From assembly GCA_017504205.1 (NCBI GenBank), contig JAFVRO010000019.1, forward strand, positions 62,001-126,000: a stretch of DNA of 64,000 bases. Reading direction: 5' to 3'. The notes under the pieces were generated by a model, which saw nothing but the letters and a program-made list of their open reading frames with translations, ran no database searches and was not told the DNA's origin. The DNA comes from Clostridia bacterium (GTDB taxonomy: Bacteria > Bacillota > Clostridia > Oscillospirales > CAG-272). Below, in pieces: positions 56,727-63,622 of the stretch (its first letter is position 1; each line of letters starts with the position of its first letter). Made by a program: the position numbers and the translations under genes.

Positions 56727-56744
56727 TACTGTGTATGAATAATC

Positions 56745-56975
56745 AAACGCAATGATGGGGAGTAGTACGGCAAGTTGAGCCTGCAGAGAGCGGACGGGTG
56801 GTGTGAGTCCGCGGTGATATTGTCCGAAGTCGTCCCGGAGCGGTGGGAGTGAAGCCGAGTAGCTTTCAACGGTTCTCCACGTTACGGAGTCAGAGTGTGC
56901 AAGTCTTGTCTTGCAAAATCAGGTGGTACCGCGTTTTTTCGTCCTGTTGTTGCAGGGCGTTTTATTTTTTCAGAG
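56745..56975 (+). promoter_or_regulatory. T-box riboswitch controlling valS
   Basis: The 550-bp gap before valS holds a T-box leader. Stem I elements include ATGGGGAGTAG near the base and AGAGAG (56785-56790) distally, followed by GGTG and the return strand GAGTCCGC. The invariant T-box sequence AGGTGGTACCGCG is at 56921-56933. A terminator hairpin (GTCCTG...CAGGGC with a T run, about 56941-56970) overlaps it. GTC at 56822-56824 fits a valine specifier codon, though its place in the loop was judged by eye. Uncharged tRNA-Val would stabilise the antiterminator and switch on valS. Confidence 0.92.
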
Positions 56976-57011: not shown

Positions 57012-59660
57012 ATGATTAACGGTCACGAATTGCCAAAAACATATTCTCCCTCCGAATTTGAGGACAGAATATATCAGTTCTGGTGTGATAACGGTTATTT
57101 CACGCCCGATAAGGAAGATACAAGGCCTACCTTCTCTATCGTTATTCCACCTCCCAATGTAACGGGACAGCTTCATATGGGTCACGCGCTTGACCAGACG
57201 CTTCAGGACATACTTGTCAGATACAAGAGGATGCAGGGCTTCAACACGTTGTGGGTTCCCGGCACTGACCATGCAGGAATTGCTACGCAGATAAAGGTTG
57301 AGGAGAACCTCAGAGTGAACGAAGGTCTTACAAGATACGATCTCGGACGTGAGGCGTTTCTTGAGAGGGTATGGGATTGGAAGCACAAATACGGAAGCCG
57401 TATTATAAGTCAGCTCAAAAAGCTCGGATCGTCATGTGACTGGACGAGAGAGAGATTTACTATGGACGAGGGCTGCTCCAAGGCGGTTCGTGAGGTTTTC
57501 GTAAATCTTTACAACAAGGGACTTATTTACAGAGGTCACAGAATAATCAACTGGTGTCCTAACTGTACGACGGCGCTTTCTGATGCCGAGGTTGAATACA
57601 AGGATATGCCCGGTCATTTCTGGCACATACGCTATCCTGTAAAAGGCAGTGACGAGTACGTTGAGGTTGCTACGACGCGACCTGAGACGATGTTCGGAGA
57701 TACGGCGGTTGCGGTCAACCCCGAGGACGAGAGCAAGAAGCATCTTATAGGCAAGACGCTCATTCTTCCGATGGTCGGCAGAGAAATTCCCGTAATTGCA
57801 GACGAGTATGTTGAGATAGGATTTGGTACGGGATGCGTTAAGATAACTCCCGCGCATGACCCCAACGACTTTTTAGTAGGTCAGAGACACGGACTTGAGC
57901 AGATCAAGGTAATGAATGACGATGCCACGATGAACGCTTACGCGGGAAAATACGAGGGTATGGACAGATACGAATGCCGTAAGGCGTTGGTAGCGGATCT
58001 TGAGGCTGAGGGGTATCTCGTCAAGACAGTTGCTCACGATCACAACGTCGGAGTTTGCTACAGATGCGGCACGACCGTTGAGCCTATTACAAGCGACCAG
58101 TGGTTTGTTAAGATGAAGCCCCTGGCGGCACCTGCTATTGATGCGGTACGCGACGGCTCTATTAAGTTTGTTCCCGAAAGATTTAGCAAAAACTATTTCA
58201 ACTGGATGGAAAACATTCTTGATTGGTGCATTTCACGTCAGCTTTGGTGGGGACACAGAATACCTGCGTTTTACTGTGATGCTTGCGGCAAGATGACGGT
58301 TTCCAAAGAAGACATTACGGTATGTCCCGATTGCGGTGCGCCCGTTCACCAGGACAGTGACGTGCTTGACACCTGGTTCTCATCGGCACTCTGGCCCTTC
58401 TCTACTCTCGGTTGGCCTGAGAGCACGGAGGATCTCAAGAAATACTATCCTACGAGCGTACTTGTAACGGGTTACGATATAATCACCTTCTGGGTATCGA
58501 GAATGATATTCTCAGGACTTGAGCATATGGGTGAGAAGCCCTTCTCTACCGTTTTCATTCACGGACTTGTACGCGATGCTCAGGGCAGAAAGATGTCCAA
58601 GTCGCTTGGAAACGGAATTGATCCGCTTGAGATCATTGAAAAATACGGTGCGGACGCGCTCAGATATGCGCTTGCAACAGGCAACTCCCCCGGAAACGAT
58701 ATGCGTTTCTCGGATGAGAAGATCGAGGCGGCAAGAAACTTTGCAAACAAGCTCTGGAATGCGTCAAGATTTGTTCGTATGAACCTTACGATAGACACAG
58801 TTACGCTTCCCGAGGCTGACAAGCTGGCTCTTGAGGACAAGTGGATACTTTCAAGGCTCAACGCTTTGACGGCGTCCGTTGTTTCGTCACTTGACCGTTT
58901 TGAGGTCGGAGTTGCTCTGTCTGCAATCTATGACTTCACCTGGGATATTTTCTGTGACTGGTACATTGAGCTTGCAAAGACGAGACTCAACGAAAAGGAC
59001 ACGGAGGCAAACCTTATTTGCCAGAATGTAATTTCTTACGTTCTTGACAGCATTCTGAAGCTTCTCCATCCGTTTATGCCGTTCATTACCGAAGAGATAT
59101 ATCAGTCCCTGCCCCACACCTGTGAGAGCATTATGATCACTGAATATCCGAAGTATGATTCTTCAATGGACTTCGAGGCAGAGGCAACCGAGATGGGACG
59201 TATCATTGACGCTATCAAGGCGATCAGAGCGTGCAGAAGTGAGATGAACGTAGTTCCCTCACGAAAGGCGAAGGTATACGTTGCGACCAAGCACACGGGT
59301 GCGTTCAACGAGCAGACGGCGGTATTCTTCCTGCGTCTTGCATCGGCATCCGAGGTGATCGTTGCCGAGAGCTTTGACGAGAGTGAGGTCAGCGCGGACA
59401 ATTCGCTTCAGATCATTACGGATTCCGCTACGATATTCCTTCCTTTGTCAGATATAATCGATTATGAGAAGGAAAGAGCCCGTCTGACGGCAGAAAAGAA
59501 GAAGCTTGAGGGCGAGATCGAGCGTCTTGAGAAAAAGCTTTCAAACGCAGGATTCGTTGCGAAGGCGCCCGAGGCGGTTGTAAACGGTGAAAAGCAGAAG
59601 CTTGCAAAATACCGTGAAAACCTTGCGGGTGTTGAGGCGGCTCTTGCAAAGCTTGGTTAA
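57012..59660 (+). CDS. valS: Valine-tRNA ligase
   Basis: An 882-residue class I synthetase that charges tRNA-Val. The HIGH motif reads HMGH (55-58, in [15 protein letters not shown]), the editing (CP1) domain has [20 protein letters not shown], and the KMSKS motif is in [15 protein letters not shown] zinc-binding pair of CxxC segments ([18 protein letters not shown]) lies in the middle, and the typical valyl C-terminal coiled coil (about 810-880) is present. Start supported by GAAAGGA. It is controlled by the upstream T-box. Confidence 0.97.
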
Positions 59661-61525: not shown

Positions 61526-61887
61526 GGGGGCGTAAAGGTTTCGACGGGGATTCTGAGGTATGGTAAGCGAGTAAAGCTGAGTAATCTTTTCAACTGCTCA
61601 CCTTAAAATTTAAATGCAGACAACAATGTTGCAATTGCCGCGTAAGCGGTGACGTTGCCATAAGGCAACCCGTTCCTCCGGGGAGTATCGCGGCCCCGGA
61701 CTGAGCGTCACACAGCGATGCACGTGCATGGGTGGTTATCCTTTGAGCCCATCACGCAGAAAAAGGATACTCAAGTCCTGAGCCTGACCTTCGGCGCGGG
61801 ACGAGGGGAATTTTAAATGAAGGTCTACACTCGTAGAAAGCTATATCAAGGGGTTTTCGGACAGGGGTTCGACTCCCCTCGCCTCCA
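61526..61887 (+). ncRNA. ssrA: Transfer-messenger RNA (tmRNA), tag ADNNVAIAA
   Basis: The 5' end GGGGGCGTAAAGGTTTCGAC (61526-61545) and the 3' end TTCGACTCCCCTCGCCTCCA (61868-61887) are the tRNA-like parts; the acceptor arms pair with one G-T wobble and a T-arm is visible. The tag frame runs from 61616 to 61645: GCA GAC AAC AAT GTT GCA ATT GCC GCG then TAA, giving ADNNVAIAA. Pseudoknot-rich sequence fills the rest. CCA is not fully encoded after the discriminator base. It is probably co-transcribed with smpB and processed. Confidence 0.96.
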
Positions 61888-61891
61888 TCTG

Positions 61892-61926
61892 AAAAAAGCG
61901 CATCTGCGTTGCAGATGCGCTTTTTT
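61892..61926 (+). terminator. Strong terminator after tmRNA
   Basis: AAAAAAGCGCATCTGC and its perfect complement GCAGATGCGCTTTTTT flank a GTT loop. The symmetric A/T runs make it bidirectional. Confidence 0.95.
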
Positions 61927-61930
61927 CAAC

Positions 61931-62109
61931 GAAATAAATCCCTTGCGGGATTTGTGAAATGCACTGCGTGCGTGAAATACGCTCCGCGTGTGAAATGCGC
62001 TGCGGCGCGTTAGGGGATTTATTTCATTTCACATTGCGACCGAAGGGAGCAATATTTCACAATTCACGAAGTGAATTATTTCACATTCGGCGTGAGCCGA
62101 ATATTTCAC
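61931..62109. repeat. Hairpin array B: short hairpins separated by GTGAAAT, then ATTTCAC
   Basis: Unlike hairpins alternate with one constant 7-mer. GTGAAAT is at 61954, 61972 and 61990; its reverse complement ATTTCAC is at 62026, 62054, 62078 and 62103. Between them lie AAATCCC-TTGC-GGGATTT, GCAC-TGC-GTGC, ACGC-TCC-GCGT, GCGC-TGCG-GCGC, ATTGC...GCAAT, AATTCAC-GAA-GTGAATT and ATTCGGC-GTGA-GCCGAAT. GAAATAAATCCC (61931-61942) recurs inverted at 62013-62025. No gene is present. The last ATTTCAC touches the -35 of the next promoter. Confidence 0.9.
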
Positions 62110-62138
62110 TTGAAACACTATCGCTTTTATGATATAAT
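62110..62138 (+). promoter_or_regulatory. Promoter of the GNAT gene, abutting array B
   Basis: TTGAAA (62110-62115), a 17-bp spacer and consensus TATAAT (62133-62138) with an upstream TGA (TG-extended). It begins on the base after the last array word. Confidence 0.8.
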
Positions 62139-62176: not shown

Positions 62177-62584
62177 ATGAATACAACGCCGAAAGAAAAC
62201 GAAATTAAATATATACGCGAAGCCCTTAATCAGTTCAACAAAGAAATCGTTGGAGATGACGGTCACACACCTCTCAATATTATTGAGTATGACGAAAACG
62301 GCAATATTATAGGCGGTATTCTCGGCGGTACTTATTGGGGTTGGATGTATGTGGATATTTTATGGGTACACGAAAACCACCGCAAAAAAGGCGTTGGATC
62401 TAATCTCTTACATAAAGCCGAGGAAGAAGCTCTTCGTAGAGGGTGTCACCATGCCCACCTTGACACAATGAGTTGGCAAGCTCCCGATTTTTATAAGAAA
62501 CACGGTTATTCGGTGATTGGTATTCTTCCCGACATTCCAAGTGGAAATTTAAAATATCTGCTTATGAAAGCATTACAAGACTGA
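62177..62584 (+). CDS. GNAT family N-acetyltransferase
   Basis: A 135-residue acetyltransferase. The acetyl-CoA-binding motif A is in VHENHRKKGVGSNLLHKAEEEA (R/K-x-x-G-x-G), with the strand ILWV before it and YKKHGYSVIGIL as the final motif B. The substrate is unknown. The start has GAGGT about 9 bp upstream. The gene is more A+T-rich than the tmRNA/valS side and is flanked by two hairpin arrays, which suggests it is an acquired single-gene unit. Confidence 0.9.
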   Translation: MNTTPKENEIKYIREALNQFNKEIVGDDGHTPLNIIEYDENGNIIGGILGGTYWGWMYVDILWVHENHRKKGVGSNLLHKAEEEALRRGCHHAHLDTMSWQAPDFYKKHGYSVIGILPDIPSGNLKYLLMKALQD

Positions 62585-62681
62585 CAAATTTCAATTTGTC
62601 GAGTAGTTAATAGAGCAAAATCACACACCTTTTTACTGTTCTTACCTACATTTACACACCTTTTTATTACTATTTCGCAAC

Positions 62682-62721
62682 AAAAAACGCACTTTTGTCT
62701 TGCGACAAAGGTGCGTTTTTT
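62682..62721. terminator. Bidirectional terminator after the GNAT gene
   Basis: AAAAAACGCACTTTTGTC (62682-62699) pairs with GACAAAGGTGCGTTTTTT (62704-62721) apart from one T-G wobble, with a TTGC loop. It directly precedes hairpin array C. Confidence 0.9.
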
Positions 62722-62723
62722 GA

Positions 62724-63004
62724 ATGATGTTTGCAAAAGTTCGCAAAGCGAACTTTATGGCAAATGATGCAGGGCGTTGCCCTATGATGAAAGGCGCGCA
62801 AGCGCGCCTAATGATGTTTGCCTTCGGCAAATGGTGATTTCGCCGAAGGCGAAATCCGGCTTCGCCCAATGATGACGGCTACGCCTAATGATGCGTGGCT
62901 TCGCCACATTTTATGGCAAACATCGCATCATTGCGGAACGACGTGGAGCAACATCATTTTGAGCGAAGCGAAAAACATCATATCGCCGCAAGGCGATGCA
63001 TCAT
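62724..63004. repeat. Hairpin array C: hairpins separated by ATGATG, then CATCAT
   Basis: ATGATG occurs at 62724, 62764, 62784, 62811, 62869 and 62888 (and ATGGTG at 62831); its reverse complement CATCAT occurs at 62926, 62952, 62976 and 62999. Between the words lie unlike hairpins: AAAGTTCGC-AAA-GCGAACTTT, GGGC-GTT-GCCC, GGCGCGC-AA-GCGCGCC, TTTGCC-TTC-GGCAAA, GATTTCGCC-GAA-GGCGAAATC, GGC-TAC-GCC, TGGC-TTC-GCCA and CGCC-GCAA-GGCG. No credible gene lies in this 500-bp gap. Confidence 0.92.
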
Positions 63005-63028
63005 TTGAAGACATACAAGGCTTACGCC

Positions 63029-63057
63029 TTGATTTATTTGCGATTGTGTGGTATAAT
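63029..63057 (+). promoter_or_regulatory. Promoter after array C
   Basis: TTGATT (63029-63034), a 17-bp spacer ending in TGTGG (extended -10) and TATAAT (63052-63057). It follows array C by 24 bp. Confidence 0.8.
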
Positions 63058-63082
63058 AAACCAAAGACGGGAGGTGGCGATA

Positions 63083-63622
63083 TTGAAACGTGAAGATGCC
63101 TTTTATTATATGAATTTGATATTGCTTGGCTTTTCTGACGGCTATGACGATTGGTTGAATTATTATTTAGAAATAGAATCTCCATTGAGTGATATTGTAT
63201 TAGAACTTTCTCTGTGTGGCTCTGATGTAAACAAAACAATTTCCTTATTACACAACTACTGCGCCGAACAGAATTTTGACAAGGCGGTTTCACACGATAA
63301 ATTAAGATTGTTCTTCAAAAATGCCTATTACTCAAATCGGATGAGTAAAGATGAAGTGTTATCCACTATGTACCGTTTGTCTCTCAACGTTGGAGATCCC
63401 GGTGATTTTGACATTAAATTATGGGGAAGCATGTACTATCTCGATTATTACTACGGCTTGGCTTTAGATGGTATAATCCCGATGGAAAATTTTGATTTTG
63501 CATTTTTCTCATACCTTGATAATGGAACGCCGCTCGATTCGGATCTTATTTGGAGGAAGAGCACGAAAAAGAAGCCGTCATTGTTTGATAAAATCAAAAG
63601 CATTTTAAAAAGGCAGTCATAA
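63083..63622 (+). CDS. Protein of unknown function behind hairpin array C
   Basis: A 179-residue soluble protein, acidic and aromatic-rich (MNLILLGFSDGYDDWLNYYLE; GSMYYLDYYYGLALDG), with a basic C-terminal tail (KKKPSLFDKIKSILKRQS). I recognise no family; its helical pattern may suit a small immunity or regulatory protein but this is only a guess. I choose the TTG at 63083 because GGGAGG (63069-63074) lies 8 bp upstream; an ATG at 62996 lies inside the array and before the promoter. It is A+T-rich compared with the core genes. Confidence 0.7.
   Translation: MKREDAFYYMNLILLGFSDGYDDWLNYYLEIESPLSDIVLELSLCGSDVNKTISLLHNYCAEQNFDKAVSHDKLRLFFKNAYYSNRMSKDEVLSTMYRLSLNVGDPGDFDIKLWGSMYYLDYYYGLALDGIIPMENFDFAFFSYLDNGTPLDSDLIWRKSTKKKPSLFDKIKSILKRQS

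Follow-up and report, generated by a model that had tools for sequence, protein, structure and literature searches.

Hairpin arrays with an inverting word: a probable gene-less copy of a repeated DNA element linked to PF05635 four-helix-bundle genes in gut Clostridia

The window analysed here, a 64,000-nucleotide stretch of a Clostridia bacterium contig (JAFVRO010000019.1), carries an array of short hairpins strung on a fixed six-base word, which we read, with somewhat more confidence than doubt, as a copy, without its gene, from a family of DNA elements composed of a terminator, a word/hairpin array and a promoter, to which the full-length form adds a gene for a PF05635 four-helix-bundle (4HB) protein, a homologue of Avd, the accessory protein of diversity-generating retroelements. 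Such arrays are a widespread repeated element of uncultured gut Clostridia. From sequence comparison we lean towards the view that the element is a mobile DNA module whose word would be read by a cognate 4HB protein, the window copy being one without the gene.

Results

Layout of the array in the window

Six ATGATG words (at 62724, 62764, 62784, 62811, 62869 and 62888) are followed by four CATCAT words (62926, 62952, 62976 and 62999) with a single switch of orientation, and between them lie perfect hairpins with stems of 5–9 bp and loops of 3–4 nt, together with shorter or imperfect ones. The flip from ATGATG to CATCAT noticed in the preliminary description is real, as the word-array detector scored 9 for 62677–63060 against a maximum of 5 in 1000 dinucleotide shuffles. 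The same interval contains 59 stem base pairs vs. 9.4 ± 6.6 (maximum 35) in 1000 such shuffles, and the array folded as single-stranded DNA gave z = −7.0 on the + strand and z = −8.0 on the − strand. Hairpin density across the 64-kb window is highest at 62676–62926, the runner-up being a sister array at 61.9–62.1 kb, 0.6 kb upstream, which has the same layout with the word GTGAAAT flipping to ATTTCAC. The originally delimited extent, 62724–63004, captured the word/hairpin array but missed the terminator and promoter flanks and the linkage to 4HB genes: the repeated unit also takes in a terminator at 62678–62723 and a conserved, promoter-bearing right flank to about 63058. The features are as follows.

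61890–61928, + strand: terminator of the sister element, directly 3' of tmRNA (61526–61890)
61929–62110, + strand: sister array, word GTGAAAT/ATTTCAC, closing arms GAAATAAATCCC and GGGGATTTATTTC
62177–62584, + strand: GNAT acetyltransferase gene (Pfam PF00583) between the two arrays
62678–62723, + strand: terminator-like hairpin moving with the element, AACAAAAAACGCAC TTTTGTC-TTGC-GACAAAG GTGCGTTTTTTGA
62724–62893, + strand: left half-array, six hairpin-separated ATGATG words
62736–62756, 62771–62783, 62792–62809, 62817–62831, 62836–62856, 62895–62907 and 62982–62997: perfect hairpins of the window array
62736–62756: extra hairpin AAAGTTCGC-AAA-GCGAACTTT inside the first left hairpin (TTTGC...GCAA) and shared by the copies at C11 and C12
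62813–62822, + strand: closing arm GATGTTTGCC (word plus hairpin arm), inverted repeat with 62915–62924
62836–62870: exchanged module GATTTCGCC-GAA-GGCGAAATC plus CCGGCTTCGCCC, recurring in a GTGAAAT-word array at C18:9829–9884
62894–62925: central hairpin GTGGC-TTC-GCCAC and centre tail GGCAAACATC, pairing with the closing arm
62926–63004, + strand: right half-array, four CATCAT words and three hairpins, the best-conserved part of the ATGATG family
63005–63058, + strand: right flank with hairpin CAAGGCTTACGCCTTG and promoter TTGATT-17-TATAAT, as read from the sequence
63083–63622, + strand: 179-aa ORF with a TTG start after GGGAGGTGG, driven from the element

The terminator inverted repeat (62681–62699/62704–62722) is 95% complementary, and the same hairpin stands at C11:18450 and C16:55681 before arrays whose words are different; likewise, the right flank is common to elements with other words (C11:18670–18724). 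The 179-aa ORF, which has no Pfam or NCBIfam match, occupies the place held by the 4HB gene in other copies.

Two further observations were made in the window. Just before the terminator, at 62623–62676, there are two copies of ACACACCTTTTTA 31 bp apart, and the same motif (ACACCTTTT..TTTTTACC..ACACCTTTT), always with the 31-bp spacing, stands before terminators in several genomes, whether or not an array follows; this is perhaps a separate 3'-UTR element. A T-box leader is located at 56743–56949, upstream of a valyl-tRNA-synthetase-like gene (57012–59660).

A family of elements with different words and a common plan

In the source genome (947 kb in 25 contigs, 52% complete), ATGATG arrays also occur on C11, C12 and C22; arrays with the GTGAAAT word are found on C11 and C18, and those with GTGAAG on C11 and C16. 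Parts of the window array recur at C11 and C12 with 85–92% identity over 160–236 bp, and a three-word CATCAT pattern with few control matches was found in 99 of the 246 genomes of the same taxonomic family, so that the initial judgement that this is not a copied unit does not hold. What was correctly perceived is the conservation of word and hairpin shape in spite of variable arms, of which 303 distinct ones were counted among 768 hairpins.

Each array uses one word, and at least ten variants occur in the element family (ATGATG, GTGAAAT, GTGAAG, GTGATG, ATGAAG, TGATAT, GTGATAT, GTTATAT, GCTAAAT and others). About 20 aligned ATGATG elements, together with the post-tmRNA arrays of relatives, yielded the plan: terminator hairpin, w1-hairpin-w2-hairpin-w3-hairpin-w4, central hairpin and tail, w4'-hairpin-w3'-hairpin-w2'-hairpin-w1', promoter of the next gene. 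Most ATGATG arrays have exactly 4+4 words flanked by terminator and promoter, the window copy differing by extra hairpin units in its left half (six words instead of the usual four), and in many copies the −35 box abuts the last word (CATCATTTGACA). The flip noticed for ATGATG is thus not peculiar to this word, the symmetric 4+4 plan being common to at least ten word families.

The tail is complementary to w1 plus the first hairpin arm, and the resulting closing helix is retained with differing sequence (GATGTTTGCC, TAAGTGTTCCGC, ATATCCGTTCCTT, TAAATCCACCC and others), the counterpart of the closing arm being kept across word families as its sequence changes. The mean run of this helix is 9.9 bp, compared with 5.9 bp in mispaired arrays (p 1.6e-35) and 9.1 bp when the mispaired arrays share their word (p 0.003).

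Hairpins are partly common to and partly different between copies within one genome, and units have been gained, lost and exchanged between arrays, as had been anticipated for single hairpin-word units. The window block 62817–62872 matches C18:9829–9884, inside an array with the GTGAAAT word; hairpin modules therefore pass between word families. Terminators with the core TTTGTC-NNNN-GACAAA precede arrays of several word families and hence appear to be part of the module, with the proviso that the search covered loci gathered for arrays, in which solo terminator copies may be under-sampled.

Hairpins are maintained at the level of DNA

The GTGAAAT and TGATAT word families are identified by covariance model as Gut-1 (Rfam RF01706), which corresponds to one half of such arrays. 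The sister array is matched twice at 61927–62111, once per strand (64.7 and 55.9 bits), and matches above the cut-off were also obtained in TGATAT-type arrays, whereas the ATGATG array of the window, at 21.2 bits, stays below the 50-bit cut-off. Gut-1 is present in 67 of 98 genomes of the same taxonomic family, and it has been ranked as certainly RNA (PMC2864571). A structured non-coding RNA, that is, Gut-1 sRNA and its relatives as catalogued in Rfam, therefore had to be weighed as an explanation of the arrays as a whole.

In 531 hairpins from 124 oriented arrays, scored in a manner blind to the kind of mismatch, the stems contain 2790 Watson-Crick, 9 G-T and 13 A-C pairs, and Gut-1-type arrays alone gave 838, 2 and 2, respectively. 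By contrast, the tRNA acceptor stems of the same loci, used as a control, show an excess of wobble pairs (1127 Watson-Crick, 79 G-T and 4 A-C). The loops point in the same direction. Read on the outward strand, GNA (151) and GNNA (55) make up 66% of the 314 loops of left halves, and GNA (120) and GNNA (49) 54% of the 315 loops of right halves, TNC accounting for 7 loops (~2%) in either case; the closing base pair is C-G in ~83–84% of outward-strand loops. Outward on either strand, each unit reads as a DNA mini-hairpin, for the most part C(GNA)G or C(GNNA)G, and then the word. With GNA and GNNA loops on G-C stems, DNA mini-hairpins are extraordinarily stable and resist nucleases (PMC4686876).

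As the favoured strand switches along with the word, no single transcript can bear GNA loops in both halves. Moreover, both strands of one array are matched by Gut-1, and each array occupies the stretch from a terminator to the next promoter, which leaves no promoter positioned to transcribe it. The absence of a wobble asymmetry and the swap of loop polarity together argue for selection on folded DNA of both strands, as a cruciform or as transient single strands. Hence, we take the data to favour maintenance of hairpin structure at the DNA level over an RNA, and on pair statistics and loop polarity the RNA reading was rejected as very improbable. Of the early suggestion that folding in RNA or single-stranded DNA is under selection, the selection on folding stands and the RNA does not.

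Arrays are linked to one clade of four-helix-bundle genes

Some arrays precede a short gene whose product matches Pfam PF05635 (97.9 bits) and TIGR02436 (108 bits) over the cut-off and has 2rld and 2gsc as relatives in the PDB. The 108 PF05635 genes sampled came from 12 genomes with arrays, from a search across the family and from a scan of public genomes made without selection for arrays; 84 of them have a word array, found de novo, directly upstream, as opposed to 0 of 300 shuffles. The tight linkage is to one 4HB clade; a basal clade is without arrays, and so are most 4HBs from other families in a sample taken across the phylum, and in some genomes arrays occur with no PF05635 gene detected in the draft assemblies (e.g. 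G071, G076 and G093).

The protein changes together with the word. The pairs are ENKLVELSMDF with ATGATG, ESKLRELSMEF with GTGATG, ESKLRxQSMDF with GTGAAG, DKLSxQSMDF with ATGAAG, ENKLLDLSFEF with TGATAT, SILRDKSKEFAK with GTGATAT, SIIREKAKEFAK with GTTATAT, ESIMLEKAKDF with GCTAAAT, and a TEFAIKI-type protein with GTGAAAT. On a tree of 101 4HB proteins the nine word states require 12 changes (minimum 8), and all label groups require 31 changes vs. 68.3 after shuffling, with none of 200 shuffles that low. At the genome level, CATCAT arrays (at least three matches) occur in 11 of 14 genomes with a near-identical ATGATG-clade 4HB vs. 38 of 232 others (p 1.6e-6), an association confounded by shared ancestry. 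Part of the co-divergence is accounted for by linkage in inheritance and by common ancestry, and the pattern could even be mere co-inheritance of linked DNA. Recognition in trans is suggested because all eight words of an array change in concert, although this homogeneity could stem from local duplication or conversion instead of protein recognition.

Three groups of loci depart from the usual layout. A separate 4HB clade (SPLLEKSMDFA, SPLQDKSKAFALE, SPLITKSKAFALE) lies behind a tRNA/tmRNA terminator at L248, L423 and L450, and the array before it is hairpin-free, with 7-bp tandem TTCACT words flipping to AGTGAA (AGAGAA in L248). A Lentisphaerae contig (L314, 3948–4065) has the reversed order, CTTCAC then GTGAAG, upstream of a possible second 4HB gene, and may possibly represent transfer to another phylum. 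An Acholeplasmataceae-labelled contig (L316, 2500–3000) carries GTGCAG and GTGAAG words between hairpins, with no flip, upstream of a 4HB gene.

In an all-against-all comparison of 563 neighbour ORFs, the 4HB was the sole recurrent neighbour in 86 loci and no other recurrent partner was found. Two explanations call for a different enzyme. One is that the arrays are REP/BIME elements mobilised by a RAYT (Y1 transposase), a reading suggested by the tag beside a palindrome, the opposed unit orientation and the ssDNA-type hairpins (PMC3733652). Yet PF01797 was not found in 7 of the 12 array-bearing genomes (G000, G063, G080, G088, G056, G109 and G111), most of them at least 90% complete and array-rich; in addition, the tags differ from GTAG/CGTC, the words are element-specific, and the linkage is to 4HB. 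On the absence of PF01797 from array-rich genomes it was rejected as the least probable of all readings considered.

The other is that the arrays are targets or passengers of a retroelement, in which a diversity-generating retroelement (DGR) or group IIC-like reverse transcriptase would act in trans on post-terminator hairpins and the 4HB would serve as a cofactor in the manner of Avd. A DGR target requires a hairpin or cruciform of DNA in which the stem structure, not the sequence, matters and which has a GRNA loop, and group IIC introns insert 3' of terminators (PMC3240598); furthermore, Avd resembles PF05635 proteins (PMC10053308). Nevertheless, RVT_1 was present in only 3 of 14 array-bearing genomes and no reverse transcriptase is recurrent near 4HB genes. 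With RVT_1 absent from the other 11, the DGR/group II reading was set aside as highly improbable.

Placement and spread

Arrays lie less than 140 bp after a tRNA or tmRNA in 45 of 72 4HB-linked cases and in 17 of 72 other oriented arrays. Near-identical modules of terminator, array and promoter are found behind different tRNAs within one genome, and at the post-tmRNA site of relatives there is an array with different words in some and none in others. Comparison with the available relatives, which are too diverged for the purpose, yielded neither a base-exact empty site nor a target duplication. The arrays had no match in phages or plasmids, the exceptions being one IMG/VR contig for one exact pattern and two for another, and a phage or plasmid origin was rejected. 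As a separate observation, repeated tmRNA 3' ends, as from site-specific island integration, are present downstream of tmRNA in L201, L214, L223 and L228.

The position between terminator and promoter is also what would be seen if the array were a non-mobile operator or topological insulator, used by the 4HB or a nucleoid protein to control the downstream gene, with copies spreading passively by duplication and homologous recombination. The variety of downstream genes (GNAT, ADP-ribosylglycohydrolase, NUDIX, hydrolase and ORFs without annotated function) and the clustering of arrays in the source genome, often with one gene between neighbours (C1, C11, C12, C18), are in keeping with such a role. 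However, relatives differ in whether the same tmRNA site is occupied, and there are dozens of copies per genome, each bringing its own terminator; this looks more like a spreading element than like a regulatory site fixed in place, and we regard this explanation as unlikely, if worth keeping in mind.

The runs of alternating arrays and genes (the window; C11:18.4–23.5 kb; C18; G063:C27) with small accessory genes as cargo recall integrons, which use recombination sites of folded DNA, and arrays might by analogy be sites at which one-gene cassettes are shuffled downstream of tRNA/tmRNA. Against this, no integrase recurs beside arrays in the neighbour comparison and the cargo genes are singletons; full modules and arrays also occur singly, and no excision or cassette circle was seen. 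On the neighbours compared, the integron reading was judged quite improbable.

Discussion

The data support the architecture of the element, the upkeep of its hairpins at the DNA level, the linkage of arrays to a 4HB clade, the co-divergence of word and clade, the dispersal of copies, and the location after terminators and often after tRNA or tmRNA. For the mobile module that we prefer, a mechanism may be envisaged in which negative supercoiling or single-stranding would fold the outward strands into mini-hairpins, as hairpin or cruciform, leaving the words exposed in register. An oligomeric cognate 4HB might then bind the repeated words of both half-arrays, and the complex could promote copying or recombination of the module to new terminator-proximal sites, which would include gene-less arrays carrying the same word. 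PF05635 relatives crystallise as pentamers, and we know of no DNA-binding or catalytic activity of these proteins. A bolder and distinctly tentative proposal is that PF05635 4HBs are sequence- and structure-specific DNA binders and that a gut-Clostridia clade drives a transposase-free mobile element, each protein clade reading its own word, present on both halves of the mini-hairpin array, and spreading array, terminator and promoter to tRNA ends.

Many bacteria encode 4HB proteins of the 23S-intervening-sequence/Avd type, for which no function is known. An array placed directly upstream of the 4HB gene, its word diverging along with the protein, would provide a concrete candidate ligand and a protein-word code, and this joint change points to a previously undescribed protein-DNA partnership. 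In addition, a candidate RNA of Rfam, Gut-1, is recast as a DNA element, and the arrays show the C(GNA)G mini-hairpin of DNA, a motif familiar chiefly from chemical and aptamer studies, to be under natural selection. Should the modules prove mobile, they would exemplify transposase-less insertion of terminator-promoter units behind tRNA genes.

Several known systems invite comparison with the element. MITEs are defined by terminal inverted repeats, target-site duplication and a cognate transposase; here there are opposed half-arrays and dispersed copies, but comparison with diverged relatives gave no target duplication or empty site, and no transposase was identified among recurrent neighbours. 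Integron attC sites fold as single strands with structure taking precedence over sequence, and a gene-array-gene layout is likewise shared, while no integrase was found near arrays and the architecture is unrelated. The 23S rRNA intervening sequences that encode IVP (PF05635) have the same protein family carried by inserted DNA, whereas the present element sits after tRNA/tmRNA and other genes rather than within rRNA and has a word/hairpin array attached. GTAG/CGTC-tagged REPs, BIMEs and RAYT systems resemble it in the short tag beside a DNA palindrome, the opposed orientations, the intergenic position and the many copies per genome, and tagged REPs are the nearest in shape to the word arrays (PMC3733652). 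The tags differ, however, and the element has a fixed 4+4 plan, an element-specific word, free stem sequence and a 4HB partner instead of a Y1 transposase. In the DGR target with Avd, a distant four-helix bundle of PF05635 type, we find a DNA hairpin whose stem sequence is free and whose loop is of G..A type, and thus a precedent for a mechanism involving folded DNA and a 4HB (PMC3240598, PMC10053308); the element differs in having no reverse transcriptase and no template or variable repeats, in its many worded hairpins, and in loops that are mainly GNA/GNNA and not strictly GRNA.

The closest catalogued entry is Gut-1, which equals one half of the GTGAAAT and TGATAT arrays. Its model is a 77-nt RNA, whereas the full element has a pair of opposed halves with a terminator and a promoter, comes in at least ten word families, often includes a 4HB gene and has stems unlike those of RNA. 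In the open-access literature searched, we found no description of 4HB-linked arrays. The initial impression that no named family has this layout is accurate for the layout as a whole and has to be amended for the GTGAAAT word family, already in Rfam as Gut-1. Judged against the open papers compared, we rate the element family as lying outside the known kinds, with a subset of it already catalogued under that name.
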